Below, in pieces: positions 1,740 through 32,463 of a DNA stretch of 64,000 nt. Location: assembly GCA_021817005.1 (NCBI GenBank), contig JAKAWJ010000003.1, forward strand, positions 1 to 64,000. Reading direction: 5' to 3'. Numbering within the stretch: the first letter of the stretch is position 1; each line of letters opens with the position of its first letter. Under the pieces are notes generated by a model, which saw nothing but the letters and a program-made list of their open reading frames with translations, was not told the DNA's origin and did no database searches. A program made the position numbers and the translations under genes. Source of the stretch: an archaeon. Lineage in GTDB: Archaea; Thermoproteota; Thermoprotei_A; Marsarchaeales; Marsarchaeaceae.

Positions 1740-3203
1740 ATGAGTTTTAGACCAATCAAGGTTTTAAAAGCGGAGCAATCGCAGGAAGCCATCTCTTTAC
1801 GGGAGCTTCCTTGGAAGTACGGCGAAATGGGACTGCTCTACCCCAGCGCGCAGATTACAAAGCGCGACGGGCAGATTCGCTACGAAATAATCGAGCCGGA
1901 CCTGAGCAAACAGGAAATGGAGAAGGAGATGGCGCTCAGGAAGTCTCTCTTCTACACGCTCAAGCCCGAGTCCCTGGCGGTCGGCGCTGACGATGCAGAA
2001 GTGGCAACGCGGATGCTCGACCTTCTCAAAAAGTCGGTTGACAAGTCCACCTACCCCAAGATAGGCTACTATCTTGTGCGGGATATAGTGCGATACGATT
2101 CGCTAACCGCATTTCTGGATGACCCGGACATAGAGGACCTGAGCTATTCCGCAATGGATCAGAGCGTCAAGGTGTTCCACCGCGAATACAGCACGTGGCT
2201 CGACACAAATCTTGACATCTCCCTCGAAGACGCGGATTATCTCGTCCAGCGAATCGCGCTAAAGTGCGGCAAATCTGTTTCCATAGCAATCCCCATGCTG
2301 GACGCGATGAGCCCCGAAGGCTACCGAGTTTCTATCACTTTCTCGAAGGAAATATCACCACCGGGTTCGACGTTCTCCGTAAGAAAGCCGGCGACAGAGT
2401 TCTGGACTCTCCCTGAACTGATTGTCGACAAGCGCATGATGACTCCGGAAATGGGCGCTGCGCTCTGGTACACTCTTCAGAACCGCGGTGTAGTGCTGGT
2501 CGTGGGAAGGCCGGGTACCGGAAAGACCACGCTCATGAATTCGGCGCTCACGGTGCTGCCGACGAGCTGGAAGATGGTCACCGTCGAAGAGATCCCTGAG
2601 ATACACATACTGCATCCCAACTGGCTGCGTCTGATCACCCGGCGCTCAAGCACGTTCTTAGAGGCATCCGAGAAGGTGGAGATTTCTCTTGACAAACTCC
2701 TGCCTCACACACTCAGGGTGCGCCCTGACATAGTCTCAGTGGGCGAGGTCAGGACAAAGTCTGAAATCAAAGAATTCATTCAGGCTGTTGCAGCCGGCAA
2801 TGGCGGCATAACTTCGATGCACGCAGAGGACTTTGACTCGCTAAAGGCAAGATTCAACTACGCGGATGTGGACGATTCCTTCTTCTCGCTGGTTACTTTT
2901 GTGCTCTTCCTTAACGCATTCGAAGTTCGCGGGAAGCTGATTCGCAGGGTTCAGGAGATGGGAGAGGTGGTGCTCAAGGACGGCAAAGCGACCTACAACT
3001 CCCTGGCGACCTACAACCTCGCGAAGGATAGCTACGTTCAGAATGTCTACGACAGCGTAAGGATGGCAAAGCTTGCGTCCATAAACGGACTGAGCAAGGA
3101 TGATTTGTTAAAGGACTTGGGCAGGCGCAAAGATTTCATCGGCCGCAGTGCTTCGCTAAAGGGCAACGAGTTCGTCGAGGAACTTCGGCAGTTTTACGGC
3201 TAG
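1740..3203 (+). CDS. Type IV pilus assembly ATPase (GspE/VirB11/FlaI family), locus A
   Basis: A 487-residue cytoplasmic secretion ATPase that would power pilin extraction and polymerisation. The N-terminal half has the family's VRDIVRYDSLTAFLDDP segment. The ATPase core holds Walker A GRPGTGKTT at about residues 256-264, the acidic box VTVEE, Walker B region RPDIVSVGEVR at about 328-338 and the histidine box GGITSMHAED near 352-361. Length is normal for archaeal FlaI-like ATPases. It follows the pilin trio and precedes its membrane partner by 13 bases. It differs from the canonical Walker B in having VRTKSE rather than RGxE after the GEV. Three paralogous ATPases occur in this window, so it is likely dedicated to locus A. 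Confidence 0.92.
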   Translation: MSFRPIKVLKAEQSQEAISLRELPWKYGEMGLLYPSAQITKRDGQIRYEIIEPDLSKQEMEKEMALRKSLFYTLKPESLAVGADDAEVATRMLDLLKKSVDKSTYPKIGYYLVRDIVRYDSLTAFLDDPDIEDLSYSAMDQSVKVFHREYSTWLDTNLDISLEDADYLVQRIALKCGKSVSIAIPMLDAMSPEGYRVSITFSKEISPPGSTFSVRKPATEFWTLPELIVDKRMMTPEMGAALWYTLQNRGVVLVVGRPGTGKTTLMNSALTVLPTSWKMVTVEEIPEIHILHPNWLRLITRRSSTFLEASEKVEISLDKLLPHTLRVRPDIVSVGEVRTKSEIKEFIQAVAAGNGGITSMHAEDFDSLKARFNYADVDDSFFSLVTFVLFLNAFEVRGKLIRRVQEMGEVVLKDGKATYNSLATYNLAKDSYVQNVYDSVRMAKLASINGLSKDDLLKDLGRRKDFIGRSASLKGNEFVEELRQFYG

Positions 3204-10996: not shown

Positions 10997-12849
10997 GCGA
11001 AGACTCTGGGATGCTAGACTCCCTTCGAACCAAACTTCGCTCGCTCGCCCGCGGGTCAGACGGCGAGCGAGGCGAAGACTTTCCAGAAGGACAGCACAGG
11101 GTGGTGCTCGCCAAGCCGGAATCCAGAAAGAGTTTCAGGCGCTCGATTCTGGCTAGAGGCCGTGGCGATAACGGCCGCAGTGCAGGCCCGGTCCCGCGAC
11201 TGCGTGGCGAGCGTCACGGCCTCCTGAAGAAATTTGGAGGCGCGAGTTTTCGAAAGACAGGGAGGCCTCAGACTATGAAGTTCGAGGCCAAAAAAGAAGG
11301 CCCGGTATCACGAGGATTTCTCATAGCCACCCTCCCTTCTGGTTTCGCACCTGCAGTGGCACCCAAAGAAGTGGGTCTCGCCAAAGTCTATGTCCAGGGT
11401 GGAATGTACTACGTTCAGGACCCAGAAGTCCCGGCAGAAGAACTGAGCGCATACTCGAACGTCCTTCAGGAAGGACTGGAGTGGCTACCTCCCGAGGCGT
11501 TCTCGTCTGAAGACGGTCTCGAACGGATGCTTCGTTCGCGCGGAATCGACGACGAAGCGATACTGTATTTCATGCGCCGGGAGCTATCTGGGTATTCGGT
11601 GCTTCAACCGCTGGTGGACGATCCGAATGTCGAAGATATTGTTGTGGCTTCTCCTGACACTCCAATATCAGTTCGACATTCAAGCGGAACACTCGAAACG
11701 AATATAATCCTCGACGCGCCAGTTCTGGATTCGCTCGTCCAGAAGCTCGCCTCATATGCTGGAAAGCCGATCAGTACTTACAATCCACTTTTGAGCGCGA
11801 GGCTCCCGGACGGAAACCGGCTCACGCTGAACTATGGCAACGAGGTAAGCCACAGGGGCACGTCTGTAGCCATAAGGAAATTTCCGAAGGAGCCCTGGAG
11901 TGTGGCTCGACTGCTTGCACTCGGCTCCACGACACCCGAAGCGCTTGCATGGCTCTGGCTTCTTATAGAGAACAGGAAGGCGCTCATTGTAACAGGCGTG
12001 AGCGGAGTCGGGAAGACGAGCATGATCAATGCGCTCACGTCGTTCATCCCGAGTTCATCAAGAATCGTGACTGTTGAGGACGCGGGGGAGCTCAGACTGA
12101 GCCACAAACACTGGACTCCACTCGTTGCGAGATATTCCTATACGCAGAACCGGTTCGCCGAAATTTCGCTTGACCAGCTAGTCCGTCATGCGCTCAGGAT
12201 GTCAGCTGATTATATCATAGTCGGCGAAGTCAGGGGAGAAGAGGGCCACAGCTGGGCCCAGAGCATTCTGACCGGCCACGGAGGAATTACCTCGATACAC
12301 AGCGAGACACCCGAGCTTGCAATTCAGAGACTAATCTCTCCCCCCGTGAGCGTTGAACCAAGGAGCCTCACGGCTCTGCACGGTATTGTGGAACTCAGGA
12401 TGAACTCCTTCAACGGGGCTGTGACCAGGTTTGTCTCCACCATTCTGGACCACTCTCTCGAAACAGACCTCAGCTCGAGTTTTAGCAGAGTCTACCCCAG
12501 CGCGGCTTCTGCGCCGCTACTACCAGAAGACTATGCAGGTTATCCTACGGCGCAGGCGCTTGTATCACAGGGAAACCTATCTCCGGACGAACTCGCTCAG
12601 GAAATTCAGATTCGGAAACGCCTGCTCGACGTGCTCAGGTCAGAGTGCGCGCGCGACCCTGCGCTCCTCAGTCATGAGGCAGTGAGCCGGATAAGCTGGG
12701 CATACCAGGCCGAGCCAGCGCTGCGCGACCGCCCTGAAAGGCTGATTGATTTCGCTCGGACTACCTGTCCCCGGTGCTTCTCGGCACTGCCTCTCGGAGG
12801 AGTGTGCGCACGCTGTGCGGAGATCGACACCCCTGAAATAGCGGCGTAA
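10993..12849 (+). CDS. Type IV pilus assembly ATPase with C-terminal zinc ribbon, locus B
   Basis: A 618-residue secretion ATPase. The first ~110 residues are basic, Arg/Gly/Ser-rich and probably disordered. The ATPase domain has Walker A GVSGVGKTS at about 335-343, acidic box VTVEDAGE, Walker B region ADYIIVGEVRGEE and histidine box GGITSIHSE. The C-terminus carries a zinc-ribbon-like pair, CPRC (592-595) and CARC (605-608), absent from the other two ATPases here. It starts at TTG 10993 within the pilin stop (ATG 11011 is possible) and is followed 3 bases later by its membrane partner. Function, powering locus B pilus assembly, is secure by family. The role of the zinc ribbon is unknown. Confidence 0.9.
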   Translation: MSEDSGMLDSLRTKLRSLARGSDGERGEDFPEGQHRVVLAKPESRKSFRRSILARGRGDNGRSAGPVPRLRGERHGLLKKFGGASFRKTGRPQTMKFEAKKEGPVSRGFLIATLPSGFAPAVAPKEVGLAKVYVQGGMYYVQDPEVPAEELSAYSNVLQEGLEWLPPEAFSSEDGLERMLRSRGIDDEAILYFMRRELSGYSVLQPLVDDPNVEDIVVASPDTPISVRHSSGTLETNIILDAPVLDSLVQKLASYAGKPISTYNPLLSARLPDGNRLTLNYGNEVSHRGTSVAIRKFPKEPWSVARLLALGSTTPEALAWLWLLIENRKALIVTGVSGVGKTSMINALTSFIPSSSRIVTVEDAGELRLSHKHWTPLVARYSYTQNRFAEISLDQLVRHALRMSADYIIVGEVRGEEGHSWAQSILTGHGGITSIHSETPELAIQRLISPPVSVEPRSLTALHGIVELRMNSFNGAVTRFVSTILDHSLETDLSSSFSRVYPSAASAPLLPEDYAGYPTAQALVSQGNLSPDELAQEIQIRKRLLDVLRSECARDPALLSHEAVSRISWAYQAEPALRDRPERLIDFARTTCPRCFSALPLGGVCARCAEIDTPEIAA

Positions 12850-29798: not shown

Positions 29799-29831
29799 GG
29801 ACTTGAGACTCACAGTGAGTATTCTGCGCTG

Positions 29832-29841
29832 GCTATATAAC
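29832..29841 (-). promoter_or_regulatory. TATA box of the locus C ATPase gene
   Basis: On the minus strand it reads ttatatagcc. Transcription about 25 bases downstream would begin near 29810, just ahead of ATG 29798. Confidence 0.5.
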
Positions 29842-30539
29842 GGATTCGCAGCTATCCCCTCTGTAGATTAATATCAAATGTGATATATTATCTATGCTAT
29901 AAGTCTACTTATGCCTTTTGGATGAATGTATAATCGCCCCTGTCCGGACGTGCAGCCCACGACAAGGGCTCTCCTCGCTGCGGGCCAAAGACTGGGGGAG
30001 CACTGCGGCGGATGTCCCGCTCGTTTGGGTCGTTGGAATACTCGAGCTGTGCTGGGATATGCTCTTTAAGAGAAGACTTTGGACCATACGTTTGACGGCG
30101 TGGATTTGATGCTAGAGTCAAGTCTTTGGGCGAATGTCGATTTGTGAATAATAAGGATGTCCTAGAGGAGGATCTCTTGCTCACGGTCGACCCCGCTCTA
30201 TCCGGAGCTGCAAATTCCGTCTGGAAGCATCAATATCTTCTTGAGGACTTGGATGACGGGCTACCATACCTGCCGATCGCTTAAGGATTGGTCGAATCGG
30301 GTGGAACTCGAATCGCTGACGCTGAAGCGGAACTCGTGGAGAAGACCATTCGCCATTGGTTAGGCACAGGCTCGCACTGCACGACATCATTTTTGCGGCT
30401 CTTGCTAGAGAAATGGAATCTCCACTCGGTACTTCCGACAAACGCCAAGCGCGTTTGATGAACTAGTGAGAGTTGTCGACTGAAATTGTAAGATCAAATC
30501 GAGATTTGCAAGGGAAGCTTCGTGGATTCTGCCGGGTCC

Positions 30540-30569
30540 GCTAAGCCCAGCTAAGTTCAGTTAAGCTCT
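30540..30569. repeat. Three direct 10-bp repeats (GCTAAGnnCA-like)
   Basis: Units gctaagccca, gctaagttca and gttaagctct follow one another with a 10-bp period, placing TAAG once per helical turn. The spacing suggests protein binding on one DNA face, but no regulated gene is adjacent. Confidence 0.4.
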
Positions 30570-31003
30570 AACAGACGTTCAGCCGAGTATGCGCCGCTCA
30601 GGTAGCTCGACCATATCGACGGGGACGACCGGCAGGCTGTGGACTACTGGGCCAGCGCCGTCGGCCGCGCGGCGACTTCAGCCGCTGGTCACCGAACACG
30701 ACCACTCTGGAATTTCCCACCCGCGAGCCACTCCGCAGGTAGGTCGGAGAGCGTGGGCTCGATTTGCCGTCGCGCTCGAGGCGGATTGTCGCTCGGGACC
30801 CCCGGCCGGTGCGTGAACAGTCAGACAGGCACACACAATCAGCAAAACAGTCACAGGTGCGCAGAAGAGAGGGAGAAAAGTATGCGGTCGCCGGGTATTT
30901 TGGGATCGCTTTCGAATCCCTGACAGTTTTGCAAGCAAACTAACCCAAAAATATACAAGATATACGAAGCCTAGACATAGATATTAGAGCATACTCGAAT
31001 CAA

Positions 31004-31216
31004 CCTAAGACTAGTCTTGGGGCCTTACAAAACATTAGTCCAAGACTATAAAACTTGCGACAAGGTTGGATGCCAGACTTCCAAGACTAGTCTTGACGAA
31101 ATTTAAGACTACCAAGACTCCAGAACTAGGAAGTCAGCCCGAAATTTGAGCACGATTTCATGATAGTCTTGTTCTTCCAAGGCTAGTCTTGGCAAGACTC
31201 CCAGTCTTGAAGACTG
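31004..31216. repeat. Cluster of AAGACTAGTCTT palindromes and half-sites
   Basis: Full palindromes: 31007-31018 (AAGACTAGTCTT), 31082-31095 (CAAGACTAGTCTTG, perfect), 31177-31192 (CCAAGGCTAGTCTTGG, one mismatch) and 31202-31216 (CAGTCTT-G-AAGACTG, perfect). Half-sites AAGACT or AGTCTT also occur at 31042, 31105, 31114, 31165 and 31194. About a dozen copies of one hexamer in 210 bp is far above chance. The cluster lies about 290 bp before the start of the DUF5678/retropepsin pair. Operator array, partition site or origin element are all possible; none is established. Confidence 0.75.
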
Positions 31217-31465
31217 CCTATGGTACGAGACCGCAAGCGAAACCATTGTACTACATTTTCGAAGGGCCGTTAAATCCTCAGGATTGGTTGTCTCGGGTCT
31301 TAGGTGGATTGCTGTCGTACATAGTTGTCGGAGCCCCAGGGGCTTGCTGACTGTGACTGTCAAATGCCTCCGAGATAACAGTCATAACAAAAATCACAAG
31401 GCTCCTTTGTATATCATTGAAACTTGAATGATAATCACATAGTCTAGGAAGAGCTGTTGACAAGG

Positions 31466-31473
31466 CTTTATAT
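31466..31473 (+). promoter_or_regulatory. TATA box of the DUF5678/retropepsin unit
   Basis: ctttatat lies about 35 bases before ATG 31505, predicting a transcript start near 31496 and a short leader. Confidence 0.55.
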
Positions 31474-31504
31474 CCATGAAAGACAAGTATATTGTGCTCA
31501 ATGA

Positions 31505-31765
31505 ATGTCTCAGTCGCCGGCCTTGCAGACTGAATATCAGTACTATCTTAAAATCAAAGCTGACCTGCTCAAACAATACAAAGGTAAGTTTGCTTTAATT
31601 AAGAAACAGGAGCTTGTCGGAACCTTCGATACGGATCAAGATGCCTACAATTCGGGTCTTGACAAATTTGGAAACGTGCCGTTTCTAATAATTCGTATAG
31701 AGGAAACAGATGAATCAGCTTGGATTCCTGTGCTATCTATGGGCCTTTTGAATGCCGGTCTTTGA
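31505..31765 (+). CDS. DUF5678-like small protein
   Basis: An 86-residue protein. A helical start (EYQYYLKIKADLLKQYKGKFALIKKQELVGTF) is followed by DTDQDAYNSGLDKFGNVPFLIIRI. This is the pattern of small archaeal/cyanobacterial DUF5678 proteins (LxxYKGKxVAIxxxxVVxxGxxxxxAxxxAxxxxxxPxxIxxI). Function unknown. It overlaps the next gene by 14 bases, so the two are co-translated. DUF5678 proteins are often found beside retropepsin-like proteases, which supports the assignment. Codon use looks more AT-rich than its neighbours, hinting at acquisition. Confidence 0.65.
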   Translation: MSQSPALQTEYQYYLKIKADLLKQYKGKFALIKKQELVGTFDTDQDAYNSGLDKFGNVPFLIIRIEETDESAWIPVLSMGLLNAGL

Positions 31766-32228
31766 ATTCACTTACAATGCCGCAGTAACTGCAGGTCAAA
31801 GTCCAATTTCACCTCAAGCGGCTCTTCAGCCTGCTGGACCTCGAATCCAAGGGATACAGATGGCCGTACCATCGCGTCTTGAACAGCAGCTAAGAGACTC
31901 AAATCAGCCAGTGCCTTCTCCAATTTCTGGGGATGCACTGATCGACACTGGCGCTACGGTTAGCGCTGTGGATGATTCTGTCATTCGCAGATTAGGAGTA
32001 TCTCCTGTAGGATTAGCTAACGTTGGAACCGGAGCCGGGCCGAATCAACAAAACCTCTATCCTGCAAGATTCATCTTGCCTAACCTAGGATTTGTGCTCG
32101 AATTCAGTAGAGCGTTGGGAAGTAACCTTTCTTCAACGGGACTAATAGCTCTATTGGGTAGAGACGTCCTTTCAAGAATGGTCCTCATCTATAGTGGGGC
32201 GTCAGGCAGGATTACGAATGCATTCTGA
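31752..32228 (+). CDS. Retropepsin-like aspartic protease
   Basis: A 158-residue protein with the aspartyl protease motif ALIDTGATVSAVDDSV (D-T-G-A) at about residues 62-77 and the family's C-terminal ALLGRDVLSRMVLIYSG. These are the hallmark of single-domain, dimeric retropepsin-like proteases. Residues 1-55 may form a beta strand for substrate binding. It would hydrolyse peptide bonds in the cytoplasm as a dimer; the substrate is unknown. It starts at ATG 31752 within the partner gene. Together they form a compact two-gene unit preceded by an unusual palindrome array. Confidence 0.72.
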   Translation: MPVFEFTYNAAVTAGQSPISPQAALQPAGPRIQGIQMAVPSRLEQQLRDSNQPVPSPISGDALIDTGATVSAVDDSVIRRLGVSPVGLANVGTGAGPNQQNLYPARFILPNLGFVLEFSRALGSNLSSTGLIALLGRDVLSRMVLIYSGASGRITNAF

Positions 32229-32388
32229 AATAGATTCTGCCCCTATTTCCCATGCTTTACTTCGGTACAAGGGAACTTTAAGGATCTCAGTTTCACAATT
32301 TTGTAATGAGAGCTAATCTAAAGTCTCCCTAAGGAGAAAGTCTTGATAAGGTGGATTTCCGTCTGAGATTATAACTCATGGAGGTAGG

Positions 32389-32463
32389 TGCGGTCGCCGG
32401 GATTTGAACCCGGGATCGGCAGCTTGGAGGGCTGCAGTCCTAACCAGACTAGACGACGACCGC
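32389..32463 (-). tRNA. tRNA-Gly(TCC), with C33 in the anticodon loop
   Basis: A 75-nt cloverleaf. Acceptor GCGGTCG/CGACCGC, D-arm containing TAGTCTGGTTAGGA, anticodon stem GCAGC/GCTGC, T-arm CCGGG-TTCAAAT-CCCGG, discriminator A; no CCA is encoded. The seven-base loop reads CCTCCAA, placing TCC at 34-36 and C at position 33, where nearly all tRNAs have U. The tRNA-Val here, with the same layout, has T33. No intron. Confidence 0.9.

Follow-up and report, generated by a model that had tools for sequence, protein, structure and literature searches.

The question raised by this locus is what is served by a dense cluster of short palindromes lying upstream of two archaeal genes, one encoding a DUF5678-like protein and the other a retropepsin-like protease. 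Within the window, by which we mean the whole 64-kb stretch analysed, the array spans 31004-31216 (no strand assigned) and consists of 12 AAGACT half-sites arranged as palindromes, an everted pair, and single and direct half-sites, with the extended half-site consensus (C)CAAGACTAGTCTTG(G). Two of the palindromes are perfect copies of AAGACTAGTCTT (31007-31018, and 31083-31094 inside CCAAGACTAGTCTTG), a third, AAGGCTAGTCTT, carries a single mismatch (31179-31190), and the everted pair AGTCTTGAAGACT (AGTCTT-G-AAGACT) lies at 31203-31215; five other half-sites are found at 31042 (+), 31105 (+), 31114 (+), 31165 (-) and 31194 (+). The initial annotation of this DNA had the coordinates and the number of half-sites right, but its four palindromes are in fact two perfect copies, one with a mismatch and one everted pair, and its non-constant spacings of 75, 95 and 25 bp, correct in kind, become 76, 96 and ~25 bp from centre to centre. 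The clustering is strong: 12 of the window's 50 occurrences of AAGACT/AGTCTT fall in 31007-31215, against a best count of 5 per 220 bp for unrelated hexamers in the window, and when the 650 bp preceding the DUF5678 gene were shuffled 300 times (order 1), the top hexamer averaged 3.8 copies and never reached 12. A DNA folding z-score of -4.6 was set aside as an additional signal, because palindromes alone would give such a value.

In the 1.93-Mb assembly the perfect 12-mer AAGACTAGTCTT occurs three times, twice in the array and once at C9:2078, inside an ABC-transporter P-loop coding sequence, and one-mismatch sites outside the array are no commoner than those of a reversed control. The whole-assembly search thus rejects a motif dispersed in the host genome. 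The 14-mer CAAGACTNGTCTTG is present in 13 of 229 genomes of the class and is clustered nowhere except in the window, and the viral contigs searched for the palindrome gave single matches and zero clusters.

The 1.7-kb desert in which the array was said to lie does exist (29814-31504), but it is composite, with ordinary intergenic sequence of the host in 29814-30895 and part of an insertion in 30896-31504. Array, DUF5678 gene and retropepsin gene make up one unit inserted at the 3' end of a tRNA-Gly (TCC) gene (32387-32463, minus strand, called by ARAGORN), a mobile-element context that the initial annotation missed. The integrated mini-element occupies 30896-32401 (no strand assigned), or 1,506 bp including one copy of the att core, and is flanked by a 13-bp exact direct repeat of the tRNA 3' end, TGCGGTCGCCGGG. 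The proximal core (32389-32401, minus strand) lies within the intact 3' end of the tRNA gene, which the insertion regenerated, and the distal copy (30883-30895, plus strand) is the displaced tRNA-Gly 3' end. That these components were inserted as a single unit follows from the absence of the 1,506-bp insert in G001, the sole other same-genus genome searched, where the site is empty (contig G001:C34): the counterpart of window positions 30142-30895 is contiguous with that of 32402 onward, so that it is followed by the tRNA gene, 100% identical in the two genomes, and then by an acyl-CoA-ligase-like gene. When the window flanks are joined at a single 13-mer, they match G001 at 950 of 1,077 alignment columns. 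The GC content of the element is 44.2%, compared with 52.8% for its flanks, and is below that of all 1,506-bp stretches sampled from the window.

The empty site bears directly on the reading in which the array is a host chromosomal feature, either a set of origin boxes or the binding sites of a host regulator, with no mobile element involved. The cluster itself is all that speaks in favour of this reading, and the array is missing from the otherwise colinear G001, the motif is not a feature of the rest of the genome, the skew does not change sign at 31 kb, and cdc6 is on a different contig. The version involving a host replication origin, for which a signal had been thought worth seeking here, is refuted by the empty site and finds neither an adjacent cdc6/orc1 gene nor a skew switch, and we consider the chance that any form of the host reading is correct to be very small. 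Along the window the cumulative GC skew stays level for 33 kb and, from ~36 kb on, climbs steadily with no change of sign, probably owing to gene orientation.

Two other origins of the insert were considered and judged unlikely: a DDE transposon, since terminal inverted repeats were not seen by eye, and a chimeric assembly, given the 13-bp repeat and the recurrence of the unit of left-end block, array and DUF5678 gene in a second assembly. The 13-bp repeat is shorter than the k-mers usually used in assembly. Among the ORFs between the att sites there is no integrase, recombinase or transfer gene, and therefore either the integration enzyme was supplied in trans or the element is a deletion remnant. 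The host genome contains one recognisable tyrosine recombinase, XerA-like and below the curated cut-off, which is encoded away from tRNA genes. On excision, the expected circular junction would be GGAGGTAGG-TGCGGTCGCCGGG-TATTTTGGG. A left-end block, GGGATCGCTTTCGAATCCCTGACAGTTTTGCAAGCAAAC (30902-30940, plus strand), is present in a single copy in G000 and absent from G001-G005. The right end of the element (32229-32388, no strand assigned), non-coding from the retropepsin stop to the att core, matched only the window's own copies and a short tRNA end among all loci fetched; its 22-bp match to the tRNA-Gly(GCC) of G001 was dismissed as a shared tRNA 3' end plus chance. Viral contigs contained neither the left-end block nor the hypothetical attP, phage and plasmid collections gave no match to the element, and no replicating form of it was found in the viral, phage and plasmid collections.

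In structural terms, the element fits the definition of a cis-mobilizable element (CIME) given in PMC5704250, namely an att-flanked element devoid of an integrase. Like a CIME, it has att sites on both sides, lacks integrase and transfer genes and targets a tRNA gene, and the tandem-accretion context of CIMEs is seen in a related archaeal locus (G178, below); it differs in being only 1.5 kb long, and its descent from a larger integrative element and its mobilisation by another element are hypothetical. It also resembles the cryptic integrated elements (CIEs) of Thaumarchaeota (Krupovic et al. 2019, PMC6563490), whose att sites start at 8 bp with a median of 17 and lie mostly at the 3' ends of tRNA genes: the two share integration at a tRNA 3' end, a short att (13 bp here), few genes and an unclear mode of replication. 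The survey's smallest element, at 2.6 kb, has an integrase gene, whereas the one described here has 1.5 kb, no integrase, the DUF5678-retropepsin pair and a palindrome array; the main text of the survey does not mention a retropepsin or aspartic protease. If our interpretation is right, few site-specifically integrated elements as small as this one have been described in the group.

A homologous unit was found by a DUF5678 protein scan in L014 (JASHNZ010000097.1), a 5-kb contig labelled Nitrososphaerales archaeon JOPF010. The order of left-end block, array and DUF5678 gene is the same as in the window, the left-end block is ~90% or more identical (L014 1840-1877), and the homology starts at window position 30897, at the boundary of the att core. 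In L014, 10 of the 12 hexamers of the window array are matched exactly and in register, as compared with exact conservation of 12% of hexamers in adjacent non-coding DNA (binomial P ~3e-8, an approximate value that treats the half-sites as independent). Palindrome 3 has a perfect counterpart (L014 2118-2129), the right half of the everted pair is lost, and four extra half-sites are present where the window has near-matches; a single indel separates the two arrays, compared with six in the next 288 bp. Because the hexamers remain in register within otherwise diverged non-coding DNA that has also accumulated more indels, the comparison, which is based on two sequences, indicates that the array is under selection for both sequence and geometry. 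The general idea that an oligomeric protein binds the array at multiple sites, proposed when the array was first noted, gains support from this conservation. Inverted AATCNACCTAAGAC repeats on either side of the window array are not retained in L014 and were discounted.

The MAG from which L014 derives, G229, is only distantly related: its PheS is ~33% identical to that of the host, a distance like that between other families or classes. Hence the element has been transferred across a wide phylogenetic distance, unless the short L014 contig was mis-binned. In L014 the left end of the element lies inside a longer island, which within the 5 kb of the contig includes no integrase; a second DUF5678 copy has lost its upstream side at the contig end, a small winged-HTH gene (2776-3093) follows the DUF5678 gene, and inspection of the ORFs revealed a gene pair with a RelE-like toxin, along with other genes of restriction/abortive type. 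A 24-bp core of the left-end block occurs twice, at L014 1174-1197 and 1842-1864, flanking the RelE-like toxin module (~670 bp), which would fit a block that serves as a recombination site itself or is a scar left by successive insertions.

Turning to the genes, the DUF5678-like protein (31505-31765, plus strand, 86 aa) has a Pfam match below cut-off (PF18929, E 0.0046), is 97% and 91% identical in amino acid sequence to the two L014 copies and 36% identical to a homologue in G178, which does pass the Pfam cut-off. Fifteen synonymous and three other nucleotide differences from L014a indicate that the gene is under purifying selection. Its ORF is overlapped by 14 bp by that of a clan AA (retropepsin-like) aspartic protease of 158 aa (31752-32228, plus strand) with a DTGA motif, a Pfam match again below cut-off (PF13975, E 6e-5) and 35% identity to its G178 homologue. 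This protein has the D-T/S-G motif of retropepsin-like clan AA members, and the Pfam match is provided by homologues, with those of G304, G273 and L122 exceeding Pfam cut-offs; the names originally given to the two genes are thus upheld through their relatives. A putative archaeal TATA box, TTTATATCC (31467-31475, plus strand), lies ~30-38 bp before the DUF5678 start and is kept in L014a and L014b, and may represent a leaderless-type promoter. No significant fold match to the PDB was obtained for the DUF5678 model (pLDDT 79), and PADLOC, NCBIfam and PHROGs assigned no function to the pair.

What, then, does the array do? One possibility is an operator cluster, at which an oligomeric regulator would switch the DUF5678-retropepsin operon, for instance as part of an autoregulated addiction or defence-like module. 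In both the window and L014 the array precedes the element's only operon in the same orientation, the position expected of an operator and a point against the maintenance role that we favour below; the purifying selection on DUF5678 and the toxin and restriction/abortive-type genes on L014 fit such a module as well. In archaea, operators are usually found within or immediately next to the promoter, but the array, ending at 31216, stops ~250 bp upstream of the putative TATA box at 31467, and none of its sites lies near the core promoter. The element encodes no DNA-binding protein, and DUF5678 homologues elsewhere lack the array. We regard an operator as the main rival of the maintenance reading, possible but less likely.

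The array is also close to one end of the element, 108 bp from the distal att core and beside the conserved left-end block, which recurs as a direct repeat around the L014 toxin-antitoxin module. It could accordingly be a recombination accessory region that provides arm-type or directionality-factor sites for an integrase or excisionase acting in trans. At least 12 sites would be many for arm sites, however, and near the other end there is just one half-site (32339), possibly due to chance; a text search for arm-binding domains or arm sites in a review on the tyrosine recombinases of archaea (PMC8371274) gave none. We consider this role improbable. More improbable still, in our view, is a role in partition, with a SegB/ParB-like protein binding the array as a centromere-like site. 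Palindromes clustered at variable spacing, as in the array, are typical of centromere-like sites, but segAB/parAB genes are absent from the element, the motif is not dispersed on the chromosome, and the palindrome does not seem to match the SegB site.

Our preferred reading, which we hold tentatively and at somewhat less than even confidence, is that the array is a cis-acting, multi-site initiator or maintenance region of an integrase-less, tRNA-integrated mini-element. We favour maintenance because spacing is kept over 210 bp, the promoter is ~250 bp away, and the array occupies the att-proximal end. An oligomeric DNA-binding protein, encoded by a helper element or by the host, would bind the palindromes cooperatively and act in the initiation of replication and perhaps also in copy control or partition; the bound array would build a nucleoprotein complex that lets the excised circle, or a parent element, replicate and persist, much as iterons do at plasmid origins, with the DUF5678-retropepsin pair as cargo. 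The mixture of palindromic and direct half-sites at fixed spacing would suit such a higher-order complex. Iteron-type origins share with the array a repeated short motif, a conserved geometry and spacing, and an AT-rich neighbour; the stretch adjoining the array is 67% AT (65% in L014), although the promoter region, at 66%, is just as rich. In contrast to iterons, the sites here are palindromic and of mixed orientation, and no initiator gene is nearby; a role in replication is suggested by analogy. ORF and Pfam searches detected no initiator gene within the element; the winged-HTH protein encoded in L014, and only there, is a candidate binding factor. For small thaumarchaeal elements, initiators of the winged-HTH type have been proposed (PMC6563490). 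Should this reading be right, an uncharacterised protein-protease module is paired with a conserved cis-acting array in a compact system for the persistence of archaeal elements that have neither a recombinase nor an initiator of their own.

DUF5678-retropepsin pairs also occur in G178, G273, G304 and G532, and the array is absent upstream of all of these and of the DUF5678 paralogues in G229. Conservation in relatives with the same two genes, the test set by the initial annotation, thus gives a split result, with the array kept in L014 and missing from these other loci, and because the distant pairs lack the array, it belongs to the element lineage and not to the genes. TGGGACA repeats upstream of the G178 DUF5678 gene look array-like by eye, but are not above chance. 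The pair in G178 is bracketed by a 50-bp tRNA 3' half present in two copies 2.1 kb from each other; tRNA end, retropepsin, DUF5678 and distal repeat follow one another as they do in the window, with the same orientation. In the complete genome G273 (L073 7642-8680), the 3' end of an intact tRNA-Arg(CCT) gene faces retropepsin-DUF5678 in the window orientation and ends ~200 bp from the retropepsin stop; a distal att repeat was sought there and not found, and no tRNA-derived repeat was found near the pair in G304 and G532. On a bacterial-looking IMG/VR contig (L122, 2527-5300), a gene for a tyrosine integrase precedes a DUF5678-like gene and its retropepsin neighbour by ~0.8 kb. The tRNA repeats in G178, the tRNA in G273 and the neighbouring integrase in L122 indicate that the pair is associated with mobile elements repeatedly, albeit not always, and, if this is right, DUF5678-retropepsin can travel as mobile cargo. 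It is a more speculative and, in our estimate, doubtful extension that these pairs represent a widespread archaeal class of minimal integrase-less, tRNA-integrated satellites, composed of att sites, a lineage-specific initiator-binding array and a two-gene cargo, and dependent on a helper's recombinase and initiator. Our limited literature search brought up no article that places DUF5678 together with retropepsin in mobile elements, which does not prove that none exists.

Two further observations concern the surroundings of these genes. G229 contains four DUF5678 copies, three with complete frames and one cut at a contig end, and at all four loci (L014 397-471 and 2697-2760, L128 near 6674 and L129 near 6235) the retropepsin is broken within its first ~25 codons; the protease has been lost repeatedly while DUF5678 was retained, as an orphan antidote might be. 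In L143 (G178:C54, 3687-12779), an intact tRNA-Arg(TCG) gene (12702-12779, minus strand) precedes at least four fragments of tRNA 3' halves spread over 9 kb, between which lie several ORFs with PIN domains (VapC-like, by inspection), as if toxin cassettes had been added one after another at a single tRNA gene.
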